In this document: one piece after another, positions 3-12,736 of the stretch
Numbering within the stretch: the stretch's first letter is position 1
Layout of the letters: every line of letters starts with the position of its first letter
NCBI GenBank assembly: GCA_012520355.1
Contig: JAAYOK010000206.1
Location: forward strand, 1 to 33,868
Length of the DNA: 33,868 nucleotides
Reading direction: 5' to 3'
Source: Bacillota bacterium
GTDB lineage: Bacteria > Bacillota > Limnochordia > Darwinibacteriales > Darwinibacteriaceae
Notes under the pieces: generated by a model
The model's input: only the letters and a program-made list of their open reading frames with translations
Database searches by the model: none
What the model was told of the DNA's origin: nothing
Made by a program: the position numbers and the translations under genes

Positions 3-1283
3 ATTGTAATCGTCTACCAAGAAGTCGATACTGCCCTTGTACCCTATTTAACGGTAGCCGAGAATATCATGATGCACTCCATTATCAACGAGAACAAAGG
101 GCCTTTTGTGAACTGGAAACAGATTCGCTGTGAAGCCAGGAAGGCCGCTGAAATTGTTGGTCTTAGTGTTGATATGGACACACTCGTCAGTGAGCTTACC
201 CTCTGCGAAAAGCAAATGGTTCTCATTGGCCGGGCTGTCTATCAAGAGGCCAAACACCTCATTCTGGATGAACCAACAGCACCCCTCAGTGTGCAAGAAA
301 CGGAGCGTCTGTTTGACATCGTGCGGCGTTTGAAGGCTGAGGGAATGAACATCATTTTTATCTCCCATCGCTTAGACGAAGTCTTCAAGATTTGCGAACG
401 CATTACCGTGCTCAAAGATGGTCAGCTCGTGGGAACGTATCCAGCCGAGACCATGACCATCGATAGCGTTGTGGAGAAAATGCTCGGTAAAAAGATGCAA
501 AACGCCTTTCCTCAAATTGAGACCACACCCGGGGACGTTCTCTTCGAAGTCAAGGGACTTTCGGGCTCGGGAGGCATCAACAATGCCAGCCTCAAGGTCC
601 GGGCAGGCGAAATTGTAGGTATTGCCGGACTTGTGGGCGGTGGCAAGACGGAACTGAGCAAACTGCTCTTTGGTGAGGGGACCATTTCCTCAGGGGAGAT
701 CCTGCTTAAAGGCGAGAGCATTTCTTGTAAGACTCCGGCCCATGCCGTGAAAAGTGGTTTGGCCTTGGTGCCTGAGGAGCGGAGAAAAGAAGGGATTTTG
801 GTGCATGAAGCCATTGACACCAATATCACCTTGCCGACTCTGGGGAAATATTGCTCGGGTCCATTTATGAAGAAGCCTAAGATTAAGTCCGCAAGTCGTG
901 AGTGCATCTCCACGGTGGGAATTAAGACCCCCAATGAGAAGCAGCGCGTAGCTAAACTCAGTGGTGGTAACCAGCAGAAGGTATCCATTGGGAAATGGCT
1001 TTTGTCGGATGCAGAGGTCTTTATCTTCGATGAGCCAACAAAGGGTGTCGACATCGGTTCGAAGAGTGAGATTTACACATTGATCAAGGAATTAGCGCAG
1101 CAAGGAAAAGCTGTCATTTACGTCTCCTGCGAATTCGATGAAATACTAGGTCTAACTGACCGGGTTTATGTCATGTATAGCGGTACAACCGTGAAGGAAC
1201 TAATTACAGCGGAAACAACAGAATCAGAGCTGCTTTACTATTCAGCAGGAGGTGGGTTATGTGAAACAAGAACTGTCGGCTAA
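3..1283 (+). CDS. Sugar ABC transporter ATP-binding protein (RbsA/MglA type, two ABC domains), 5'-truncated by window edge
   Basis: Frame is open from base 3 (IVIVYQEVDTALVPYLTVAENIMMHS...), upstream of the listed ATG at 69; first-domain LILDEPTAPLS, second-domain GLVGGGKTE Walker A, LSGGNQQK signature, FIFDEPTKGVD Walker B. Confidence 0.93.
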   Translation: MVIVYQEVDTALVPYLTVAENIMMHSIINENKGPFVNWKQIRCEARKAAEIVGLSVDMDTLVSELTLCEKQMVLIGRAVYQEAKHLILDEPTAPLSVQETERLFDIVRRLKAEGMNIIFISHRLDEVFKICERITVLKDGQLVGTYPAETMTIDSVVEKMLGKKMQNAFPQIETTPGDVLFEVKGLSGSGGINNASLKVRAGEIVGIAGLVGGGKTELSKLLFGEGTISSGEILLKGESISCKTPAHAVKSGLALVPEERRKEGILVHEAIDTNITLPTLGKYCSGPFMKKPKIKSASRECISTVGIKTPNEKQRVAKLSGGNQQKVSIGKWLLSDAEVFIFDEPTKGVDIGSKSEIYTLIKELAQQGKAVIYVSCEFDEILGLTDRVYVMYSGTTVKELITAETTESELLYYSAGGGLCETRTVG

Positions 1284-2280
1284 TCAAGCCGCAACGAAGC
1301 AAAAATTCAATGTTTTTGATTTTCTCTACAAATATGGCACGGTCATCGTGATCATCGGGACCGTATTATTCTTTGCACTTACGTTGAACAACTTCTTCAC
1401 ATTCAGCAATATCTCTAACGTGTTCCGTTCGGTCTCGATTGTGACATTGATTGCCCTTGCGATCACAATGTCCCTAACTGTTGGAGGCTTTGACCTATCG
1501 GTGGGAGCCACAGCAGGATTTGCCAGCGTAATTGCTGCGAAGATGATGGTCATGTGGGAGATGCCAGCTTCCTATGCCATTATAGTTCCACTCGTGGTGG
1601 GCATGGTCATTGGAGGCCTTAATGCATTTTTAATTATCAAAATCAAGATATCAGACATGCTAGCCACTCTGTCCATGATGTTTGTACTCACAGGTGTCTC
1701 CATTACCTTCCAGAGCGGGTCGGCCATTTACAACTTTATGCCGATTCCCATCGTAGGAGGCATCGCCCCTGGTTTGATGCAACGGGCCTTCTTATATATC
1801 GGGCAAGGTACCGTTGGTCGAATTCCGGTTCCAGTGATTTTGATGTTAGTTGTGGTGGCTATCGCCCACGTCTTCCTCAACTATACCAAGTATGGACGCT
1901 ATATGTACATGACAGGTGGCAACAAAGAGGCAGCTAAGCTCTCTGGTATCCCTGTCAACAAGTACGTGATCTTAGCCTACATCCTATCTGGATTCTTGGC
2001 AGCCCTTGGTGGCTTAGTCCTAGGAGCAAGACTTGGCTCCGGTGAAGTCAACGCAGGTGCCCCTTATCTCATGGATGCGGTAGCCGCTGCCTATATCGGT
2101 TATTCCGTCTTAGGTATTGGTAAACCGAACGCCCTAGGTACTCTTTTGGGAGCACTCCTCATGGGTATCTTGCTCAATGGTCTAGTTATGATGGACTTCC
2201 CTTATTATTCGCAAGACATCGTCAAGGGTATCGTCCTCATCTTCGCCCTCGGTTTGACTTATTATAAACGGAAGGAGTAA
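1261..2280 (+). CDS. Sugar ABC transporter permease (RbsC family)
   Basis: Multi-TM protein with VGGFDLSVGATAGFASV and TGGNKEAAKLSGIPVNKY motifs; Shine-Dalgarno aggagg at about 1246 favours GTG at 1261 over 1252; overlaps the ATPase gene. Confidence 0.9.
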   Translation: MKQELSANQAATKQKFNVFDFLYKYGTVIVIIGTVLFFALTLNNFFTFSNISNVFRSVSIVTLIALAITMSLTVGGFDLSVGATAGFASVIAAKMMVMWEMPASYAIIVPLVVGMVIGGLNAFLIIKIKISDMLATLSMMFVLTGVSITFQSGSAIYNFMPIPIVGGIAPGLMQRAFLYIGQGTVGRIPVPVILMLVVVAIAHVFLNYTKYGRYMYMTGGNKEAAKLSGIPVNKYVILAYILSGFLAALGGLVLGARLGSGEVNAGAPYLMDAVAAAYIGYSVLGIGKPNALGTLLGALLMGILLNGLVMMDFPYYSQDIVKGIVLIFALGLTYYKRKE

Positions 2281-2285
2281 GTGTA

Positions 2286-3497
2286 GTGGATAAATATGTT
2301 GAGCTAACAACGGAAACGATTGTAGATTATGTGAACAGCAAGACCGATTTTTTTGCCAGTGATGCAGTGTATGAGTGTGAGGAAATCGGTGATGGTAATC
2401 TGAACTTGGTCTTTAGGGTCAAGGATACCAAGAACAACACAAGCGTCATCATCAAGCAAGCACTACCCTATGTCCGGGTTTCCGGTGGCGATTGGCCCAT
2501 GGACATCAACCGTGGTGCCATTGAAACCGCCGTCTTAGAGCTTCATTATGAACTGACAGACGGTTTGGTACCCAAGGTTTACTCCTTTGACAGAGATATG
2601 TACTGCGTGATCATGGAAGATCTCTATGATTACACCATTATGCGGACTGGTCTCTTGGAGTATAACAGCTATCCCAAGTTTGCCGATCAGATCACAGACT
2701 ATCTGGTCAAGACACTACTCCTCACCTCCGATGTAGTGATGGATCACAAAGACAAGAAAGAGCTGGTTAAGAAGTATATTAACCCCGAACTCTGTGAAAT
2801 TACAGAGCAGCTCGTCTATACGGAGCCCTTTAGAATTGGTGGCCGGAATGATATGGAAGACTTCCTTGTTGACTTCCAGAAAACAGAACTGGCTGAAGAT
2901 GAGGAGCTCAGCTTAGAAGTGGCTAAGCTTAAGTTTGACTTTATGAACAATGCTCAAGCTCTCCTCCACGGCGATGTCCACACTGGTAGTATCTTTGTCA
3001 ATCAAGAGAATACTCGGGTCATCGATCCTGAGTTTGCCTTCTATGGACCCATGGCTTACGACGTTGGTGCCTTGGTTGCCAACTTGATTATGAACTATAT
3101 TTCCACTTTGGCATGGTTGCCAGAAGGTGAGAAGCGCCAAAACCACTTGGACTACCTCTTAACAGCCACCAAGGACGTTGTCGATCTCTTTGCCGAGAAG
3201 TTCCTGAAGCTGTGGGATGAAGTCGTTACAGACGAAATGGCCAAGACGCCTGGTTTCAAAGAATGGTATCTGGAAGATGTCTTAGTTAACACCGCGGGCG
3301 TAGCAGGCTGTGAAATGATTCGCCGTTCTGTCGGTTTTGCCCATGTGAAAGATCTCGATTCGATTCCCGACGACACCTTGCGTGAAAAGGCTCTCAAGAC
3401 CAATATACTCCTGGCTAAGCACTTAATTAAGAATCGCCATGAGTTTACCACCGGTGCAGCATACCAGAAGGTGGTTAAGGAGATTACATTAGACTAA
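2286..3497 (+). CDS. mtnK: S-methyl-5-thioribose kinase
   Basis: 403 aa; MtnK-like N-terminus (IGDGNLNLVFRV...IIKQALPYVRVSGGDWPMDINRGAIE), LLHGDVHTGSIFV catalytic loop, VIDPEFAFYGPMAYDVG. Confidence 0.93.
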   Translation: MDKYVELTTETIVDYVNSKTDFFASDAVYECEEIGDGNLNLVFRVKDTKNNTSVIIKQALPYVRVSGGDWPMDINRGAIETAVLELHYELTDGLVPKVYSFDRDMYCVIMEDLYDYTIMRTGLLEYNSYPKFADQITDYLVKTLLLTSDVVMDHKDKKELVKKYINPELCEITEQLVYTEPFRIGGRNDMEDFLVDFQKTELAEDEELSLEVAKLKFDFMNNAQALLHGDVHTGSIFVNQENTRVIDPEFAFYGPMAYDVGALVANLIMNYISTLAWLPEGEKRQNHLDYLLTATKDVVDLFAEKFLKLWDEVVTDEMAKTPGFKEWYLEDVLVNTAGVAGCEMIRRSVGFAHVKDLDSIPDDTLREKALKTNILLAKHLIKNRHEFTTGAAYQKVVKEITLD

Positions 3498-3501
3498 GGG
3501 A

Positions 3502-4563
3502 GTGGATATGGTGAAGTTTATGACGACAATTCCGGCTCAGCTTAATGAGTCCAAAGATAAACTGGTGATCCTAGATCAAACCTTGCTTCCAGAGGAAGAG
3601 AAGTTCTTAGAACTAACTACACCGGAAGAAATCTGGGAAGCCATTAAGAAATTGCGGGTGAGGGGTGCACCAGCCATTGGTGTTGCCGCGGCTTATGGCC
3701 TTTACGTAGCTTCTTTAGCTATTAACACAGATTCGGCTGAGACCTTCCGCAGTGAAGTCCAAAACATCAAAGATTATTTGGCGAGCTCTCGTCCTACCGC
3801 TGTAAACCTCTTTTGGGCACTGGATCGCATGATGGCCCGTTTAGAGAGTGAAACAGGCACTGTGGCTGAGCTGAAAGCAGTCTTGCTGGATGAAAGTGAA
3901 GCCATCTTTACCGAGGATCAAGAAATGGGACGGGCCATTGGCGAGTTCGGTCTCTCTCTCCTGAAACCGGGTATGGGTTTGCTCACCCACTGTAATGCAG
4001 GTGGTCTCGCGACCTCAGGCTATGGAACAGCCCTAGCCCCCATGTATCTCGGACATGAAAAGGATTATAACTTTAAAGTTTATGCCGATGAAACAAGACC
4101 CCTTCTGCAAGGTTCACGCCTCACCGCCTATGAGCTTCACAAGGCAGGGATTGATGTCACCGTCATCTGTGATAACATGGCGGCCATGGTTATGAAAGAA
4201 GGCAAGATTGATGCAGTCTTGGTCGGTTGTGATCGGATCGCTGCCAATGGTGATACGGCGAACAAAATTGGTACCTCTGGTGTCGCGATTTTGGCCAAAG
4301 AGTATGGCATTCCCATGTATATCTTAGGGCCTACGTCCACCATTGACATGGAGACACCAACCGGTGCGGAAATCGAAATCGAGCTCCGTGATAGCGATGA
4401 GATCGGTATGGGCTTTGGTAAGAGAACTGCACCTGAAGCTGTGAAGACGTATAATCCAGCCTTTGATGTAACGGACGCGAAGTATATTGATGCCATCATT
4501 ACGGAAAAAGGAATTCTACGGGCTCCTTATACAGAGAGCATCCGCAAAGCGATGGAAGACTAA
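3502..4563 (+). CDS. mtnA: S-methyl-5-thioribose-1-phosphate isomerase
   Basis: 353 aa; VRGAPAIGVAAAYG, LTHCNAGGLATSGYGTALAP, DETRPLLQGSRLTAYEL, VGCDRIAANGDTANKIGT are hallmark MtnA/eIF2B-like motifs. Confidence 0.95.
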   Translation: MDMVKFMTTIPAQLNESKDKLVILDQTLLPEEEKFLELTTPEEIWEAIKKLRVRGAPAIGVAAAYGLYVASLAINTDSAETFRSEVQNIKDYLASSRPTAVNLFWALDRMMARLESETGTVAELKAVLLDESEAIFTEDQEMGRAIGEFGLSLLKPGMGLLTHCNAGGLATSGYGTALAPMYLGHEKDYNFKVYADETRPLLQGSRLTAYELHKAGIDVTVICDNMAAMVMKEGKIDAVLVGCDRIAANGDTANKIGTSGVAILAKEYGIPMYILGPTSTIDMETPTGAEIEIELRDSDEIGMGFGKRTAPEAVKTYNPAFDVTDAKYIDAIITEKGILRAPYTESIRKAMED

Positions 4564-4707: not shown

Positions 4708-6135
4708 ATGGGGATTAAACAAGATGCCATTGAGGGTATCGTACGGGAAGTGCTACAACGCTTACAGACAGAAACTTCAAATTCACAAATCGCAAGTCCC
4801 AGGGTGGTGAGCTCCACAAACGGGATCTTTCAGACCATGGAAGAAGCCATTGCAGCCGCCAGCCGTGGTTATGAGAAACTAGGGGAAATTTGCTTGGAAC
4901 GCAGGGGCCACATGATTTCTGCCATGCGGGAGATTATTGAGGCCAATGCAGAGAAGCTCGCCCAGCTTTCAGTGGAGGAGACTGGTCTGGGCCGGGTGGA
5001 ACACAAACTGAAGAAGACCCTATTAGCAGCCAGGAAAACTCCTGGGATGGAGGTTGTCCGGCCCACATCGTTTTCTGGTGATCATGGTCTGACCTTGGTG
5101 GAGCAGGCTCCCTATGGTGTGATTGGTGCCATAACGCCATCCACAAATCCAAGTGAAACCATTATCTCCAACGGAATTGGGATGATTGCTGCAGGAAACA
5201 CCGTGGTCTTTAACTGCCACCCCAGCGCTAAGAGAGTATCGGCCATGACAGTTCGCCTGCTCAATGAGGCCATTACTTCAGTGGGAGGTCCTGCCAATTT
5301 GCTTTGCATGGTGGAAGAACCCACAAAAGCAAGTGCAGAAACGATGATGAAGGATGCCAGAGTACGGATGTTGGTGGTCACAGGTGGCCCAGAAATCGTC
5401 GACATTGCCATGAAGACTTCAGGCAAGAAAGTGATTGCGGCTGGACCAGGTAATCCACCAGTTGTCGTCGATGAGACAGCCAATCTTAAGCAGGCAGCCA
5501 AGGATATTGTAGATGGAGCGTCCTTTGACAACAATGTGTTATGTATCGCTGAAAAAGAGGTCATCGTCGTAGATGCGGTGGCAGATCAGCTCATGACACT
5601 CATGGAAGACCATGGGGCTTATCGCTTATCCAGAAGCCAGCTCGATCAACTCATGGAGCACATTGTGATCAGCTCCAATGGTCAGCCCTATGTGAACCGT
5701 AAGTTTGTCGGTAAGGATGTCCAGGTGATCTTAGGGTCCATTGGATTACAGGTTGGTTCGGATAAGCGCTTGGCCATTGCTGAGGTACCAGCGGATCATC
5801 CCCTGGTGTATCTTGAGCAATTGATGCCGGTTCTACCCATTGTGAGGGTGCCCTGTGTGGATCGGGCCATAGACCTTGCTTACCGGGCTGAACAAGGTAA
5901 TCATCATACAGCAGTGATGCATTCTCGCAATGTCGATAATCTGAGCAGGATGGCCAGGAAGATGAACACTTCGATCTTTGTGAAGAACGGACCTTCCTAC
6001 TCGGGTCTGGGCATGTTTGGTGAAGGTTTTACATCCTATACGATTGCCAGCCCCACGGGAGAAGGAGTTACATCGGCCGCCAGCTTTACCAGGCAGATTC
6101 GCTGCGTTCTCAAGGATCATTTTCGGATTATCTAG
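4708..6135 (+). CDS. CoA-acylating aldehyde dehydrogenase, BMC-associated (PduP/EutE-like)
   Basis: 475 aa; TPSTNPSETIISNGIGMIAAGNTVVFNCHPSAK, NNVLCIAEKE catalytic Cys region; N-terminal helix QDAIEGIVREVLQRLQ resembles an encapsulation peptide; SD ggaagg agg. Confidence 0.93.
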   Translation: MGIKQDAIEGIVREVLQRLQTETSNSQIASPRVVSSTNGIFQTMEEAIAAASRGYEKLGEICLERRGHMISAMREIIEANAEKLAQLSVEETGLGRVEHKLKKTLLAARKTPGMEVVRPTSFSGDHGLTLVEQAPYGVIGAITPSTNPSETIISNGIGMIAAGNTVVFNCHPSAKRVSAMTVRLLNEAITSVGGPANLLCMVEEPTKASAETMMKDARVRMLVVTGGPEIVDIAMKTSGKKVIAAGPGNPPVVVDETANLKQAAKDIVDGASFDNNVLCIAEKEVIVVDAVADQLMTLMEDHGAYRLSRSQLDQLMEHIVISSNGQPYVNRKFVGKDVQVILGSIGLQVGSDKRLAIAEVPADHPLVYLEQLMPVLPIVRVPCVDRAIDLAYRAEQGNHHTAVMHSRNVDNLSRMARKMNTSIFVKNGPSYSGLGMFGEGFTSYTIASPTGEGVTSAASFTRQIRCVLKDHFRII

Positions 6136-6148
6136 TAGGAGCTGAATT

Positions 6149-6775
6149 ATGATCGAAGATCTGGAACGAGTCGTACGAAGTGTAGTTGCCAGTTACTTAG
6201 GGCAGAGCCGGACCATCCCAGTGGGTGTGTCCAACCGCCATGTACACCTTTCGGTTCAGGCGAAAGAAGCACTCTTTGGTCCTGGTTACCAAAATGTAAT
6301 CATGAAAGAGCTGAGTCAGCCTGGGCAGTTTGCCATGAAGGAGACCGTAACTCTCGTTGGACCCAAGGGAATCATTGAAGGGGTGCGGATTCTAGGACCC
6401 GAACGGGCAGAAACTCAAGTGGAACTCATGGCAGGGGATACCTACAAGCTCGGGATACCTATGGTGATTCGAGACTCAGGGGATATAGAAAACACCCCAG
6501 GCCTTGCCTTGGTGGGGCCAGCTGGTGTCGTCAGGCTCGAGCGGGGAGTTATTGTAGCAAAGCGCCATGTTCACGCCAGTCCCAGTGAGGCGAAGGAACT
6601 GGGCATCGAGGATGGACAGCGGATTGGGTTAGCTACATCTGGGGCCAGGGCCTTAGAGTTTCGGGAAGTGTTGGTTCGGGTGAACCCTGACTATCGTTTG
6701 GAGTTTCACATTGACATCGAGGAAGCGAACGCGGCCCAATTGAAAAACGGTGATCTTGTCTATTTGAGTGAATAA
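6149..6775 (+). CDS. pduL: Phosphate propanoyltransferase/phosphotransacylase, PduL family
   Basis: 208 aa; PVGVSNRHVHLS and VAKRHVHASPSEA metal-binding motifs; N-terminal amphipathic helix IEDLERVVRSVVASYL. Confidence 0.94.
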   Translation: MIEDLERVVRSVVASYLGQSRTIPVGVSNRHVHLSVQAKEALFGPGYQNVIMKELSQPGQFAMKETVTLVGPKGIIEGVRILGPERAETQVELMAGDTYKLGIPMVIRDSGDIENTPGLALVGPAGVVRLERGVIVAKRHVHASPSEAKELGIEDGQRIGLATSGARALEFREVLVRVNPDYRLEFHIDIEEANAAQLKNGDLVYLSE

Positions 6776-6787
6776 AAGGGAGGAAAG

Positions 6788-7078
6788 ATGATGATGAAAG
6801 AAGCGCTAGGTTTAATCGAGACTAAGGGCTTTATTGCCGCCGTAGAAGGCGCAGACGCCATGGTCAAGGCAGCGAATGTCACGTTGGTTACCTGGGAGAA
6901 GGTCGGTAGCGGTTTAGTCACAGTTATGGTGCGAGGCGATGTTGGAGCTGTTAAGGCAGCGGTAGAGGCTGGCGTTAGTGCAGCTGAGCGTGTGGGCGAA
7001 GTAAAGAGTGTTCATGTAATTCCACGGCCACATGACAATGTCGAGAACGTAATTGAAGCATTTAACGAGGGAAGGTGA
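6788..7078 (+). CDS. BMC-H shell protein (hexamer)
   Basis: [58 protein letters not shown]. Confidence 0.96.
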
Positions 7079-7084
7079 GGTACT

Positions 7085-7387
7085 ATGTCAACTGAAGCAT
7101 TAGGCATGATTGAAACTAGAGGTTTAGTTGGTTGCATTGAGGCTTCCGATGCCATGGTCAAAGCAGCAAATGTGGTGCTTGTAGGCTATGTCAAGATCGG
7201 AACAGGACTCACCACCGCCTTAGTGCGTGGCGATGTCGCAGCAGTGAAGGCAGCAGTAGAAGCCGGTAGTAGCGCAGCTGAGCGTGTGGGAGAATTAGTC
7301 TCCAGCCACGTGATCGCCCGGCCTCATCAAGAGTTAAAGCGGATTTTCCCCATAGAGTTACCGAAAGCGAGTCCAGCAAAAAAATAG
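7085..7387 (+). CDS. BMC-H shell protein (hexamer), second paralogue with short C-terminal extension
   Basis: [58 protein letters not shown], extension [18 protein letters not shown]. Confidence 0.96.
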
Positions 7388-7404
7388 GGCTTTGAGGTGA
7401 TATC

Positions 7405-7701
7405 GTGATAATCGGTAAGATCGTTGGGAACGTTGTCTGTACGCAAAAAGATCCCAGCTTGGTTGGGCGCAAGATGCTGGTCGTTCAACCCGTCAACATA
7501 GAAACACTCGAGGATTCGGGTAGTCTCTTCGTTGCTTTGGATGGAGTCGGAGCCGGCGAAAATGAACTAGTCATGGTTGTCGGTGGTAGTTCCGCCAGAA
7601 TGGCAGATGGGATGGCTAAGGTGCCGGTGGACCGGAGTATTGTCGGCATCTTAGACTCCATTGAAGTTGGGGGCAAGACCATTTTCACCAAATCAGGGTA
7701 G
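7405..7701 (+). CDS. BMC-P vertex protein (EutN/CcmL/PduN family)
   Basis: GTG start; IIGKIVGNVVCTQKDPSLVGRKMLVVQPV, ALDGVGAGENELVMVVGGSSAR, VDRSIVGILDSI. Confidence 0.94.
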   Translation: MIIGKIVGNVVCTQKDPSLVGRKMLVVQPVNIETLEDSGSLFVALDGVGAGENELVMVVGGSSARMADGMAKVPVDRSIVGILDSIEVGGKTIFTKSG

Positions 7702-7732
7702 GGTCTGGATATCGGATGAAAGGACAGTCGCT

Positions 7733-9049
7733 ATGAGCATTGTGGAACTAGTGAAGAACGCAGGCGTCGTTGGGGCGGGAGGAGCAGGGTTTCCCACCCA
7801 TGTCAAAATCGATGCCAAAGCAGATATTGTCATCGCCAATGGAGCAGAATGCGAACCACTCCTGCAAAGTGACCAGCGCGCCATGGATTTATACACCGAT
7901 CAACTAATTGCGGGTCTGCGGCTGGTGATGCAACAAGTAGGAGCAGAGCGCGGGTTTATAGCGGTCAAAGAGAAACATCATGTCCTGGTGCAAAAAATCC
8001 GAGAATCCTTGGCAACAGAAACGTCCATGGAGCTCCTTCCCCTGGAGAACATGTATCCAGCCGGCGACGAGCATGTGCTGGTCAATTTAGCAACAGGACG
8101 GGTGGTCCCAGAAGGTGGGATCCCCCTCAATGTTGGTGTGGTTGTCACGAATGTGGCTACTTTGATCAATATCTACTATGCATCTCAAGGACAACCAGTT
8201 ATAGAACGCCTCGTGACAGTTATTGGGGAAGTAGCCAATCCAGCCGTTGTTCGAGTACCAATCGGGACTCCCGTCTCTACGATCATCAGCGCCCTTGGGG
8301 GTATGAAGAGTGATGATTGTGTGGTGATTAGCGGGGGTCCCATGATGGGGGAGATGTTGGCGGATCTCAATTCCCCCATTACCAAACTAACCAGTGGTCT
8401 GATTGTTTTACCTCGGAATCATAAAGTGGTTACGTTAAAAAGTCAGAAACCACAAAACCACTTCATCAAGGCCCGGTCCACCTGTTGTCAATGTAACTAT
8501 TGCACGTTAATGTGTCCGCGCTACCAATTAGGCCATAACTTAGAGCCACATAAGGTGATGCGTGCCCTTGGGGGGGCTATCGATGAACGCCTCGAGGACT
8601 TTACCCAAGCCTATCTCTGTTCGGAGTGTGGAATCTGCGGATTCTACGCCTGTGTCCACGAACTGATGCCGATTCAAATTAATCGTATGCTCAAGCAGCG
8701 ACTCCGGCAGGCACAGATCCCCAATTTGCATCAAAGGACGGATGTGGCCAAGAGAAATCCAGTGCTCCCCACGGGAATTCCTGCCGATCGTCTCCTGAGG
8801 CGAATTGGACTGGGAGCCTATGATGTAAAGACGCCCTTGGACGAGGTGCAGGTGACGCCTAAAGAGGTCATTCTCCCTCTTAGACAGCATATTGGAGCCC
8901 CAGCCGAGGCCAGGGTTCAAGTGGGGGATCGGGTAGCGCGAGGTCAGTTAATTGGCGAGATTCCAGCAGGAAGTCTCGGAGCCAGGATACATGCTAGTAT
9001 TTCTGGCGAAGTGGTTGCAGTCACCGATACCGTTGTTATTCGGGCCTAG
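7733..9049 (+). CDS. RnfC-like Fe-S flavoprotein, PduS family
   Basis: Internal ATG at 7733 gives a better N-terminus than 7661 (MSIVELVKNAGVVGAGGAGFPTHVK, IANGAECEPLL); 4Fe-4S motif CCQCNYCTLMCP and second CSECGICGFYAC; C-terminal barrel-sandwich-like region. Confidence 0.92.
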   Translation: MSIVELVKNAGVVGAGGAGFPTHVKIDAKADIVIANGAECEPLLQSDQRAMDLYTDQLIAGLRLVMQQVGAERGFIAVKEKHHVLVQKIRESLATETSMELLPLENMYPAGDEHVLVNLATGRVVPEGGIPLNVGVVVTNVATLINIYYASQGQPVIERLVTVIGEVANPAVVRVPIGTPVSTIISALGGMKSDDCVVISGGPMMGEMLADLNSPITKLTSGLIVLPRNHKVVTLKSQKPQNHFIKARSTCCQCNYCTLMCPRYQLGHNLEPHKVMRALGGAIDERLEDFTQAYLCSECGICGFYACVHELMPIQINRMLKQRLRQAQIPNLHQRTDVAKRNPVLPTGIPADRLLRRIGLGAYDVKTPLDEVQVTPKEVILPLRQHIGAPAEARVQVGDRVARGQLIGEIPAGSLGARIHASISGEVVAVTDTVVIRA

Positions 9050-9060
9050 GAGGGATCACA

Positions 9061-9606
9061 TTGGATTCGATTGGACTCATTGAGTTAAATAGCATTGCTG
9101 TAGGTTTTTATGCAGCTGACGCCATGGTCAAAGCTGCTTCTGTGAAGATTATTGAAGCTTTGCCCATTTGTCCAGGTAAATTTATGGTTTTGGTTGGAGG
9201 GGAAGTTGCCGATATTACGAACGCGGTAGAAGTAGGCGTGGAGGTAGCTGGCGATACCATCGTGGATAGCTTTATTATTCCCCGTGTTCATCCCCAAGTG
9301 TTTGGCGCCATTAATGCAGTAAGCCAGGTCCCTGCTATTCAGGCCTTGGGTATTGTGGAAACCTTCACCATTGCCTCTGGTATCATCGCGGCGGATGCCG
9401 CCGTGAAGGCAGCTGCCATCGATTTGGTGGAGATTCGCCTGAGCCGGGGGCAGGGCGGTAAAGCCTATTTTTCCCTCACTGGTGAAGTAGGGGCGGTTGC
9501 GGCGGCTGTTGAGGCGGCTGTGGATCGCATCGGCGATTCCGGGCTCTTGCTCAAGGCTGTGACAATCCCGTCTCCGCATACCGATTTAATGGACTTTCTT
9601 TACTAA
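9061..9606 (+). CDS. BMC-T trimeric tandem shell protein, PduT-like (Fe-S pore)
   Basis: TTG start; two BMC domains; ICPGKF loop as in PduT, whose Cys ligates a [4Fe-4S] cluster at the pore. Confidence 0.92.
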   Translation: MDSIGLIELNSIAVGFYAADAMVKAASVKIIEALPICPGKFMVLVGGEVADITNAVEVGVEVAGDTIVDSFIIPRVHPQVFGAINAVSQVPAIQALGIVETFTIASGIIAADAAVKAAAIDLVEIRLSRGQGGKAYFSLTGEVGAVAAAVEAAVDRIGDSGLLLKAVTIPSPHTDLMDFLY

Positions 9607-9625
9607 AGAGTGTGGGAGGGATGAC

Positions 9626-9913
9626 GTGGACTTTGGACGAGTAATTGGTAGAGTCGTGCTGACAAGGAAAGACCCTAAACTAGAGGGATTGAAGTTGTTA
9701 GTTGTCCAGCCCATCAATGAACATTATGAGGATCAGGGTCAACCTCTCATTGCCGTTGATTCTGTGGGAGCAGGGGCGAGCGAGACAGTCTGTTATACGA
9801 CCTCGCGGGATGCATCTTGGCCCTTTGGCGGAGAATCCCCCATTGATGCTTGTGTGACGGGGATCATAGATATCACTACGATCGATAAGACAATCGGAGT
9901 GGATGAGTCATGA
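9626..9913 (+). CDS. BMC-P vertex protein (EutN/CcmL family), second copy
   Basis: GTG start after gggaggg; DFGRVIGRVVLTRKDPKLEGLKLLVVQPI, AVDSVGAGASETV. Confidence 0.93.
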   Translation: MDFGRVIGRVVLTRKDPKLEGLKLLVVQPINEHYEDQGQPLIAVDSVGAGASETVCYTTSRDASWPFGGESPIDACVTGIIDITTIDKTIGVDES

Positions 9914-10176
9914 TGATAGGACGGGTTATTGGGAATGTTGTTTCCACCTGTAAGGATCAACACTTAGGTGGAAAAAAGCTACTTGTTGTGGATGTCACCG
10001 ACGAAGATGGTAAGCGAAAGTCGGTCATTGCCGTTGATGCGGTAGGGGCCGGGGTTGGTGATCGTGTCTTAGTGTTAGTCGAAGGAGGTTCGGCTCGTCA
10101 AGCCCTTGACGAACCCAAAGCTCCAGTGAATACAGCCATCGTCGGCATTATTGATTCTTTAACGGTTCATACGTAG
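9910..10176 (+). CDS. BMC-P vertex protein (EutN/CcmL family), third copy
   Basis: Overlaps previous stop; IGRVIGNVVSTCKDQHLGGKKLLVVDV, AVDAVGAGVGDRVLVLVEGGSARQ, NTAIVGIIDSL. Confidence 0.95.
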   Translation: MMIGRVIGNVVSTCKDQHLGGKKLLVVDVTDEDGKRKSVIAVDAVGAGVGDRVLVLVEGGSARQALDEPKAPVNTAIVGIIDSLTVHT

Positions 10177-10188
10177 GGGGAGAGAAGC

Positions 10189-10896
10189 ATGGTTTTCGAT
10201 GCAAGTATCGTGGATCTTGTAACAAAAATTGTGGCAGAAGTAACAGGGCCAAATCGCGGATTGAAGCGCTGTTTATGGATCGTGGAAGAGATGCCAAGGA
10301 ACAGATATATCCTAGATCATGCATCCGACCAGTTATCATCTAGCTATTCCATTGATATTTTGCCCTTTACCCCAGAGCTCCAAGATCCAGAAGGACTGTT
10401 ATACTCCTCCTATGGTAAGCTCTTAATCTGGTCTGATTTTTCGCCCCAGAGGGTGGCCGGTTATGATCTAGTTGTCTTATTCAACCTATCCTTAACGCGG
10501 GTTTCGAAAATCGCCCATCTCAACATCGATGATGAATTAACCGATCTCATCTTTCATTTCTTACAAACCAATGTTTCTATCTGGATGGATCGCTGGGACG
10601 AGCGCTATGAATACAAGAAGATGCGGCGCCCCTTGCAGGAAAAGGTTTTAAGTCTACTCGAGGTTTTAGAGGGTTATGGCATCGTCCAGCAGAATTTTGC
10701 CGACTTTGCCTGTGAAGGTGGGCCGGTGGATTGTAAGGAGCTACCTTCCACATTTATGGGAGTAGACGAAGTGAAGTTAGCTTTAAGGCAAGGTGCTCAG
10801 CCACAAGAACTGACAAAGAGCGGGAGGTTAACTCCCTTAGCCATAGATTATTTGAATGAGGTTGCTCGCAAGAGCAGAAATGAGGTGGAACGATGA
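10189..10896 (+). CDS. Uncharacterised BMC-associated protein, possibly flavoprotein-like
   Basis: 235 aa between BMC-P and aldolase genes, overlapping the latter; N-terminal helix DASIVDLVTKIVAEV resembles an encapsulation peptide; YDLVVLFNLSLTRVSKIAHLNIDD and LTPLAIDYLNE recall BMC flavoproteins (weak). Confidence 0.55.
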   Translation: MVFDASIVDLVTKIVAEVTGPNRGLKRCLWIVEEMPRNRYILDHASDQLSSSYSIDILPFTPELQDPEGLLYSSYGKLLIWSDFSPQRVAGYDLVVLFNLSLTRVSKIAHLNIDDELTDLIFHFLQTNVSIWMDRWDERYEYKKMRRPLQEKVLSLLEVLEGYGIVQQNFADFACEGGPVDCKELPSTFMGVDEVKLALRQGAQPQELTKSGRLTPLAIDYLNEVARKSRNEVER

Positions 10897-11699
10897 ACGA
10901 AAACGCAATTCGCAGAGAAATCGTCGAAGTGGGTAAGCGGCTCTTCCAACGAGACATGGTGGCGGCCAATGACGGAAATATCAGCGTCAGAGTTTCTGAT
11001 ACCACGGTTTTAATTACGCCCACCGGGGTTAGTAAAGGGTATATGGATACACAAAGCCTGCTGCGTGTGAATATTGCCGATGGCAAGGTGCTCAATGGTA
11101 ATGGGAAGGCGAGTTCAGAAACTCCCATGCATCTAACCATTTATCGCAATCGACCCGATGTGATGGCCGTCGTCCATGCACATCCTCCCACCGCTACAGG
11201 TTTTGCAGTAGCAGGAATCGCCTTTGACGACATTGCCTTACCTGAAGCGGTCCTCGGTCTCGGTAATGTTGCTTTGACCGATTATGCCACACCAACCACC
11301 AATGAGGTAGCCCAGGTGGTCTTGGATAAGATTAAGTGTAGTGATGTCCTACTCTTAGCGAACCATGGTGCCGTGGCAGTGGGTGATAGCCTAACCCAAG
11401 CCTACTTCCGTATGGAAAGTTTGGAGCAGGTGGCCAAGATTACGTTGACTGCTCGCCTGCTTGGTAATGTGAATCTGCTCAATACAGAGCAGCAAAGTAG
11501 GCTGTTTGACCTGCGTGAGAAAATGGGCTTGCGGGATTATTGTCTGTCCTGTAATAATTGTGGAAACTGCACCAATCCATCGGCTGTGGAAGAACATGTG
11601 GCGTCGCAAGCCAGCTCCAATGGAGTGCCAAGCGAAGCTATGATTCGGGAGATCGTAACTCGTATTTATACGGAGCTCTCTGCCAGGACTCCTCGTTAA
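10893..11699 (+). CDS. Class II (Zn-dependent) aldolase, FucA/AraD-like, probable BMC signature enzyme
   Basis: NDGNISVRV, TPTGVSKGYM, VHAHPPTATGFAV, LLANHGAVAVG motifs; C-terminal extension with CLSCNNCGNC and terminal helix SEAMIREIVTRIYTELS. Confidence 0.92.
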   Translation: MNENAIRREIVEVGKRLFQRDMVAANDGNISVRVSDTTVLITPTGVSKGYMDTQSLLRVNIADGKVLNGNGKASSETPMHLTIYRNRPDVMAVVHAHPPTATGFAVAGIAFDDIALPEAVLGLGNVALTDYATPTTNEVAQVVLDKIKCSDVLLLANHGAVAVGDSLTQAYFRMESLEQVAKITLTARLLGNVNLLNTEQQSRLFDLREKMGLRDYCLSCNNCGNCTNPSAVEEHVASQASSNGVPSEAMIREIVTRIYTELSARTPR

Positions 11700-11791: not shown

Positions 11792-12736
11792 ATGCAATTG
11801 ACATTCGAAGAGAATCGTCTTGATGTGGAAATTGCTTTTCGGTACTACTACGAGCAAAAGACCCAGGGGCAGATTGCCGCCGAGATGGGTTTGTCTCGAG
11901 TGAAGGTCCAAAGGATTCTTCAGAGATGTCTGAACTCTGGGATCGTACGCATTACTATCGAGGATCCACTCGTCAAGTGTATTGAATTAGAAAAAGGCCT
12001 GGTCGAACGTTTCGGACTCAAAGAGGCCCATGTGGTCATGACTCCCTCGAATGGGGTCTTTGCAGAACATCAGGTGGCTCTAAAAGGCGGAAGTGTGTTC
12101 GATAGCAAGCTGCGGGATGGAATTACCGTTGGCGTGGCTTGGGGCAGAATGGCGAATGCTGTGGCTAATAACCTGCGGCCCGATACTCCACGTAAAGTGG
12201 ATTTTGTCTCGGTTGTGGGAGGGCTTACTGCAAAGCAGTCTGTCAATCCTCTTTCCATCATCCATAAGTTGGGTGAGCTTTATGGGGGTGAGGTTTATTA
12301 CATTTCGGCACCTGCGGTCGTCGATGACCTAGAAGTAAAAGAGGCTATTTTGGGCGAACGTTCGTTAAAACGGGTCTTCCGAAAAATGAACGACATTGAC
12401 CTGACCTTTGTGGGGATCGGGAATGTGGCGGAGAGTTCAACTTTATCCCAAACAGGGTATTTATCCCCAGAGGAGCTGGCTGATTTTCGAGCCAAGGGAG
12501 CAGTGGGTGAGGTCCTCTTGTATCATTATGATATTGAGGGCAATATTATCGAGTCAGACTTTCACGACCGCCTCATCGGGATTGGCGTGGAGGGTTTGAA
12601 GAATATCGAAACGACGATTGGTGTGGCTAATGGAGCAGAAAAGGTCGCATCGATTATCGGGGCCATCCGTGGTGGATTCATCAATTGTCTCGTTACGGAT
12701 GAGGAGACGGCGGAATCTGTATTGGCCTATCCTTAA
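11792..12736 (+). CDS. SorC/DeoR-type sugar-binding transcriptional regulator
   Basis: N-terminal HTH (YYEQKTQGQIAAEMGLSRVKVQRILQRC), C-terminal sugar-binding region (GITVGVAWGRMANAVANNL, FVSVVGGLT, VGIGNVAESSTL, GVANGAEKVASIIGAIRGGFINCLVTDEETA). Confidence 0.93.
   Translation: MQLTFEENRLDVEIAFRYYYEQKTQGQIAAEMGLSRVKVQRILQRCLNSGIVRITIEDPLVKCIELEKGLVERFGLKEAHVVMTPSNGVFAEHQVALKGGSVFDSKLRDGITVGVAWGRMANAVANNLRPDTPRKVDFVSVVGGLTAKQSVNPLSIIHKLGELYGGEVYYISAPAVVDDLEVKEAILGERSLKRVFRKMNDIDLTFVGIGNVAESSTLSQTGYLSPEELADFRAKGAVGEVLLYHYDIEGNIIESDFHDRLIGIGVEGLKNIETTIGVANGAEKVASIIGAIRGGFINCLVTDEETAESVLAYP

Follow-up and report, generated by a model that had tools for sequence, protein, structure and literature searches.

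The window (the whole stretch of DNA analysed, 33,868 nucleotides) encodes a class II aldolase in which the catalytic domain is followed by a cluster of regularly spaced cysteines and a C-terminal helix that resembles an encapsulation peptide (EP), and the gene belongs to an operon that includes bacterial microcompartment (BMC) shell genes. The conservation of cysteines is specific to the tails of BMC-linked aldolases, and CxxC-type clusters recur on unrelated BMC cargo. The interpretation that we favor, with a probability of about 0.55, is that the aldolase is the aldehyde-producing signature enzyme of a DHAP-shunt BMC, and that its tail is a composite cargo module, likely metal-binding, which serves the organelle and not aldol cleavage.

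Class II aldolase and its catalytic domain

The following features are recognized in the aldolase gene.

10893..11699, + strand: class II aldolase with a C-terminal Cys cluster and an EP-like helix, 268 aa (ORF; PF00596; FucA/DrdA/YgbL fold by Foldseek)
10914..11447, + strand: Aldolase_II domain with putative metal ligands E76, H95, H97 and H158 (Pfam)
11541..11570, + strand: Cys cluster C217-x2-C220-x2-C223-G-x-C226, i.e., CxxCxxCGxC (ORF; CxxCGxC common to 12 BMC-linked aldolases)
11634..11687, + strand: C-terminal helix, probable EP, residues 248-265 (AlphaFold2 helix; EP pattern)

The ATG of the aldolase ORF overlaps the stop codon of the upstream gene (ATGA), and the frame is unbroken up to the TAA. 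The Pfam profile Aldolase_II (PF00596) covers residues 8-185 with an E-value of 8.6e-49. The residues E76, H95, H97 and H158 show no variation in the alignment of 71 relatives, and their spacing is identical to that of E73, H92, H94 and H155, which we take to be the metal ligands of FucA. The AlphaFold2 model (71 aligned sequences, mean pLDDT of 89.6) consists of an ordered core, a linker of low confidence (approximately residues 211-247, including the Cys region) and a confidently predicted helix, 248-265, with a pLDDT of 93 for residues 251-260. A Foldseek search started with this model identifies YgbL, fuculose-phosphate aldolase and DrdA, each with the probability of 1.00. The protein is a class II aldolase of the FucA/DrdA fold, and the combination noted in the preliminary description, namely such an aldolase with four regularly spaced tail cysteines (C217, C220, C223 and C226) and a C-terminal helix, is confirmed by the ORF, the PF00596 match and the model. 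None of the fuculose or DHAP-shunt aldolase family models scores above its cutoff for this protein; among these, the FucA equivalog models of NCBIfam give 82.6 vs 400 (TIGR01086) and 123 vs 250 (NF040649). Therefore, the assignment of the substrate rests on operon context.

Gene neighborhood and predicted pathway

The genes around the aldolase are listed below.

69..2280, + strand: sugar ABC transporter ATPase and permease, upstream of mtnK (PF00005; ribose-type permease families below cutoffs)
2286..3497, + strand: MtnK, methylthioribose (5-deoxyribose) kinase (TIGR01767, 465 bits vs cutoff 275)
3502..4563, + strand: MtnA, methylthioribose-1-phosphate isomerase (TIGR00512, 428 bits vs cutoff 279)
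4708..6135, + strand: CoA-acylating aldehyde dehydrogenase (AldDH) with an N-terminal EP-like helix (NF011927, 665 bits vs cutoff 403)
6149..6775, + strand: PduL-type phosphotransacylase with an N-terminal EP-like helix (PF06130, 237 bits)
6788..7078, + strand: BMC-H shell protein (ORF sequence type; homologous to shell genes in related BMC loci)
7085..7387, + strand: BMC-H shell protein (same evidence)
7405..7701, + strand: BMC-P (pentamer) shell protein (ORF sequence type; homologues in related BMC loci)
7661..9049, + strand: PduS/RnfC-like flavo-Fe-S oxidoreductase, start probably near 7733 (PF01512, RnfC_N, Fer4_17, SLBB)
9061..9606, + strand: BMC-T (PduT-like) shell protein (PF00936, two matched stretches; TIGR02526, 131.8 bits, below cutoff 250)
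9626..9913, + strand: BMC-P shell protein (ORF sequence type; homologues in related BMC loci)
9910..10176, + strand: BMC-P shell protein (same evidence)
10189..10896, + strand: protein weakly similar to TIGR02536 (BMC-associated, unknown function) with an N-terminal EP-like helix (23.5 bits, below cutoff)
11792..12736, + strand: sugar-binding transcriptional regulator of the DeoR/LsrR type, downstream of the aldolase (PF04198; NF053881 below cutoff)

The metabolosome gene set is complete in the window, with shell genes, AldDH, PduL and the putative aldehyde-generating aldolase; AldDH, PduL and BMC-T were called by Pfam, and the other shell genes by ORF sequence and homologues in BMC loci. By eye, the EP pattern is also discernible in three other proteins of the operon, each time N-terminally: AldDH, PduL and the 10189-10896 protein, the last of which is translationally coupled to the aldolase.

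The same operon contains mtnK, mtnA and the class II aldolase, that is, the gene set of the DHAP shunt, a route that yields DHAP plus an aldehyde from either 5-deoxyribose or methylthioribose (PMC6079011, PMC10986504). This context suggests that the DHAP shunt is encapsulated here and that its probable substrate is 5-deoxyribose or methylthioribose. In the predicted pathway, MtnK and MtnA would act in the cytosol to give 5-deoxyribulose-1-phosphate (or 5-methylthioribulose-1-phosphate); inside the compartment, the aldolase would cleave this phosphate to DHAP and acetaldehyde (or methylthioacetaldehyde), and the aldehyde would be converted to an acyl-phosphate by AldDH and PduL. Because no alcohol dehydrogenase is recognized in the operon (among the window ORFs examined, a subset of which was profiled), we propose that the electrons of NADH would be disposed of by PduS together with the BMC-T shell protein; a role of PduS and PduT in carrying electrons through the shell has been proposed (PMC6325248).

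In the window, mtnK and mtnA (2286-4563) head a complete metabolosome operon (4708-11699), a probable DHAP-shunt organelle. Aldolases of the same family adjoin mtnK/mtnA in five loci lacking BMC genes (L029, L042, L107, L186 and L188), and no BMC genes are found near MtnK at 19 further MtnK loci from 18 other Bacillota genomes sampled. MtnK is present in 1 of the 73 genomes of the class, and the contig could be misbinned, yet its GC content is even throughout (0.47-0.51). The L041 locus is near the window in AldDH (60%) and in the first BMC-P (62%), and mtnA and mtnK are absent from its 6.6-kb contig.

Cysteine cluster and probable encapsulation peptide in the aldolase tail

Apart from C149 in the core, the only cysteines of the aldolase are C217, C220, C223 and C226, all within DYCLSCNNCGNCTNP. 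At the core Cys frequency of the relatives (1.04%), a protein of this length would contain the pattern C..C..C..C about 3e-6 times by chance. The shorter pattern C..C..C is found, among the window ORFs of at least 80 aa, only in the aldolase tail and in the two Fe-S motifs of PduS. Chance or a frame error as the source of the tail is ruled out by this expectation, the continuous ORF and the presence of the tail in relatives.

C220, C223, G224 and C226 make up CxxCGxC, with which the [4Fe-4S] motif of ferredoxins begins and which holds its first three cysteines. The fourth ferredoxin ligand, in xxxCP, has no counterpart, with no Cys following position 226 in the window aldolase, and the upstream C217 is a candidate for this role.

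The EP pattern h..hh..hh..h is present in the C-terminal helix. The hydrophobic moment of this helix by itself, 0.23, is equaled or exceeded in 59% of shuffles, and the assignment as an EP is based on that pattern, its occurrence in relatives and the operon context. The pattern is found in 47 of the 59 tails of BMC-linked relatives, the window included (mean for shuffled sequences, 1.1), vs none of the 8 relatives that are not linked to BMC. Together with the metabolosome operon, these counts support the earlier proposal that the helix matches encapsulation peptides and that this aldolase is probably the signature enzyme inside the compartment. The helix would package the aldolase into the shell.

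Conservation of the tail among aldolase relatives

The homologues were collected by scanning contigs with the core peptides VA[AS]NDGNI and [TCI]TPTGVSKG, such that the sample is unbiased towards Cys tails; BMC linkage was determined by scoring the flanks against the BMC proteins of the window, and removal of relatives with more than 90% identity in the core left 59 non-redundant BMC-linked aldolases. All BMC-linked aldolase genes encode tails of at least 36 residues. At least one tail Cys is present in 58 of the 59 proteins, at least two in 46 and at least three in 34, the single Cys-free tail being that of L123. Cysteine accounts for 167 of the 2505 linker residues (6.7%), compared with about 1.0% in the core, and for none of the 1062 residues in the final 18 positions. 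The control regions from the same BMC loci, i.e., the N-terminal extensions of AldDH and PduL, contain 1 Cys in 995 residues and 6 in 613, respectively. Aldolase tails without BMC linkage are short and mostly Cys-free (2 Cys in 162 residues in the 8 relatives, each with at least 4 kb of flank).

In the phylogenetic tree, several Cys-less aldolases that are not BMC-linked or are of unknown context nest among the BMC-linked, Cys-bearing ones (e.g., L050/L054/L056/L070 and L126-L128). Taken together with the linkage counts, this nesting indicates that the cysteines travel with encapsulation and not with catalysis. In Moorella mulderi, the tail of a non-BMC paralogue (L079, 10001-10723) ends in HPGCTGYGG, as though it had lost the Cys/EP module by truncation.

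A part of the tail cysteines in aldolase catalysis is disfavored inasmuch as relatives outside BMC mostly lack them, and cargo proteins other than aldolases possess them. The preliminary description had considered the cysteines unexpected in a Zn aldolase; because their position is beyond the catalytic domain and cargo proteins of other kinds have them as well, they do not amount to an unusual metal site of the aldolase. The conservation in BMC-linked homologues on which that description made its case depend holds for the Cys region (58 of 59) and fails for the exact motif CxxCxxCxxC, the fourth Cys at the same period being found in the window only among the aldolases collected.

Metal-binding potential of the cysteine cluster

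The Cys motif differs by clade, the variants being CxxCGxC, C-x9-CHxCGx(1-2)C, two cysteines or a single one. In the GRM5-like Clostridia, with C-x9-CHxCGx(1-2)C, three Cys columns are conserved in 13 of 13 sequences and the fourth in 11 of 13 (mean for other filled columns, 0.68); in the Acidobacteriota, two widely spaced Cys columns are conserved in 10 of 10 (0.64); and in the CxxCGxC group, which was selected by the motif itself, three are conserved in 12 of 12 (0.45). CxxCGxC is common to the window and 12 non-redundant BMC-linked aldolases, and C, C, G and C are invariant in the motif alignment of 14 sequences. Mapping of this motif on the aldolase tree requires about 13 changes, the same as with shuffled labels, so that its clustering is no better than chance, and repeated gain or loss is therefore indistinguishable from an ancestral motif that was often lost. 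The window aldolase has no supported nearest relative on this tree.

In the reading that we favor, the tail is a ferredoxin-like Cys cluster placed directly ahead of the EP helix, the two forming one composite cargo module. The cluster would most likely hold a small metal centre, more probably [4Fe-4S] than Zn, and we put the chances that a [4Fe-4S] centre is bound as roughly even. Its fourth ligand could come from C217, a neighbouring subunit or a partner. Such a centre might fix the fold of the tag, make the assembly of the cargo core subject to redox or O2 gating, or pass electrons towards PduS/PduT. Since tails with just one or two cysteines are common among BMC-linked aldolases, and one tail has none, the cluster is not essential everywhere.

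In an alternative that we regard as doubtful, although worth consideration, the cysteines would form a structural knuckle around zinc (or, as in rubredoxin, iron), without any redox role, and this knuckle would stiffen the stretch that joins the aldolase to the EP. CxxCG is also a zinc-knuckle signature; the search of PDB with the motif profile returns, in the same listing, LIM, ribosomal and CPxCG zinc proteins as well as a miniaturised rubredoxin; and the conserved His in the GRM5-like C-x9-CHxCGx(1-2)C is compatible with Zn. However, the third Cys, at the CxxCGxC spacing, corresponds to the ferredoxin arrangement, and the best PDB match is a ferredoxin, albeit a weak one (E-value of 0.023). 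Furthermore, PduS is encoded in every CxxCGxC locus with sufficient flank (10/10, vs 16/28 of the others; Fisher p of 0.016, kinship ignored), an association that is suggestive of a link between the motif and PduS.

Another alternative is that the cysteines are free thiols, which either form disulfides between subunits or cargo proteins, and thereby set the assembly of the core, or reversibly capture the aldehyde product. The wide variation in Cys number and spacing, the existence of tails with one or two cysteines and the two widely spaced cysteines conserved in Acidobacteriota suit thiols better than a fixed metal site, but we consider this reading unlikely because the spacing of CxxCGxC or CHxCG is strict in several clades and on unrelated proteins, and the tails richest in Cys belong to lineages of strict anaerobes, in which disulfides are less expected. 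Finally, the possibility that the cysteines are an incidental, unselected trait of a low-complexity linker, for which one could cite the otherwise variable length and sequence of the linker and the loss of Cys in L123, is disfavored as very improbable by the Cys content (6.7%, whereas similar extensions on the other cargo encoded in these loci have 0.1 to 1%), the full conservation of Cys columns amid varying neighbours and the recurrence on unrelated cargo.

Cysteine clusters and putative encapsulation peptides on other cargo proteins

Inspection of the BMC loci, as opposed to a preset test, reveals Cys clusters next to EP-like helices on PduL, and also in a DeoC-family aldolase and in a mini-protein. 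In PduL of L060, L077 and L091, CxxCGxC comes ahead of the N-terminal EP-like helix; in L092, CxxCxxCxxC is located ahead of this helix; and in L043, a Cys-rich linker follows it. In L146, a DeoC-family aldolase encoded in a BMC locus combines an N-terminal EP-like helix with CEGCGKC ahead of the DeoC domain; by eye, the long N-terminal region of this protein resembles the 10189-10896 protein of the window. In four Acidobacteriota BMC loci, a mini-protein contains little more than an EP-like helix joined by a linker to C-x7-CxxCGxC; no such gene follows the BMC-P genes in L078 and L088, two further loci with sufficient flank. The positions are as follows.

L060 69-887, L077 7319-8056, L091 1910-2659, L092 2578-3384, L043 6879-7565: PduL with a Cys cluster or Cys-rich segment by an EP-like helix
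L146 13003-14445: DeoC-family aldolase with an N-terminal EP-like helix and CEGCGKC
L067 11900-12265, L082 12010-12408, L106 11909-12265, L108 7716-7964: mini-protein with EP and C-x7-CxxCGxC, directly after BMC-P genes

Thus, the Cys cluster combined with an EP looks like a portable cargo module that is separate from aldolase catalysis. A broader hypothesis, which we put forward tentatively and with the odds somewhat against it, is that metabolosomes share a portable Fe-S (CxxCGxC-type) and EP module, independently attached to class II aldolases, PduL, DeoC aldolases and the mini-protein. In this hypothesis, the module would cooperate with PduS and with the Fe-S pore of shell proteins of the PduT type, either relaying electrons in the lumen or acting as a switch that makes assembly sensitive to oxygen.

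Implications

Encapsulation peptides have been described as short helices on flexible linkers (PMC8217296). The recurring Cys-plus-packaging tag suggests an additional, undescribed and probably metal-binding part of the building or wiring of these organelles. Should a metal site prove to be conserved in the linkers of many cargo enzymes, the redox state or Fe-S assembly may govern how cargo is loaded or how the core is formed. The cluster may also hint at how electrons leave organelles without an alcohol dehydrogenase, a point that is still open for PduS/PduT (PMC6325248). In engineering, a tag may be incomplete if the Cys cluster is left out when it is copied. With mtnK and mtnA in a metabolosome, both the radical-SAM by-product 5-deoxyribose and its toxic aldehyde would be disposed of within an organelle.

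Class II aldolases with C-terminal EPs in BMC (PMC8217296) and GRM5 aldolases (PMC3557285) are already known. In the openly available literature searched, no paper deals with both microcompartments and 5-deoxyribose, and neither a Cys motif beside an EP nor an mtnK-mtnA metabolosome is described. Within the same scope, no account was found of an organelle for the DHAP shunt of 5-deoxyribose or methylthioribose. The Cys/EP module is possibly general.

Comparison with known systems

DrdA/Ald2, the 5-deoxyribulose-1-phosphate aldolase of Bacillus thuringiensis (PDB 6btd/6btg; PMC6079011), has the same fold as the window aldolase (Foldseek probability of 1.00, 29% identity), retains the putative metal ligands and has the same partner genes, mtnK (drdK) and mtnA (drdI). 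Unlike the window aldolase, DrdA lacks the Cys/EP tail and BMC. In the pairwise alignment, L116 of the window protein faces a Tyr of DrdA; LPE or MPE with the invariant E118 is a trait of the window aldolase family.

The 2[4Fe-4S] ferredoxins (CxxCGxCxxxCP) have the first three cysteines and the Gly in common with the window tail; their fourth ligand, in xxxCP, is missing there, and the upstream C217 is present instead.

In the SPU metabolosome (DeoC and RpiB; PMC8217296), acetaldehyde is the expected product, as it is for the window, and the aldolase class differs. The BMC locus with the CEGCGKC-containing DeoC protein, L146, has the AldDH closest to that of the window in the sampled Bacillota (57%), with no match to mtnK or mtnA.

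The class II aldolase of the ACI-type BMC (Acidobacteriota; PMC8217296) resembles that of the window in having a C-terminal EP and conserved tail cysteines, and differs from it in that these are two and widely spaced, with the EP and CxxCGxC mini-protein added in four loci; PduS was not found in the flanks available for the ACI-type loci.

Compared with the GRM5 fucose/rhamnose BMC (Cphy_1177; PMC3557285, PMC6325248), the window operon has mtnK and mtnA, and no glycyl radical enzyme is found among the window ORFs tested by profile. The Cys spacing of the GRM5-like relatives, C-x9-CHxCGx(1-2)C, is also different. Nevertheless, the fuculose-phosphate aldolase of GRM5 is, as proposed for the window protein, a class II aldolase that serves as the aldehyde source in a BMC, and in the GRM5-like relatives a Cys-rich linker likewise leads to a C-terminal EP.
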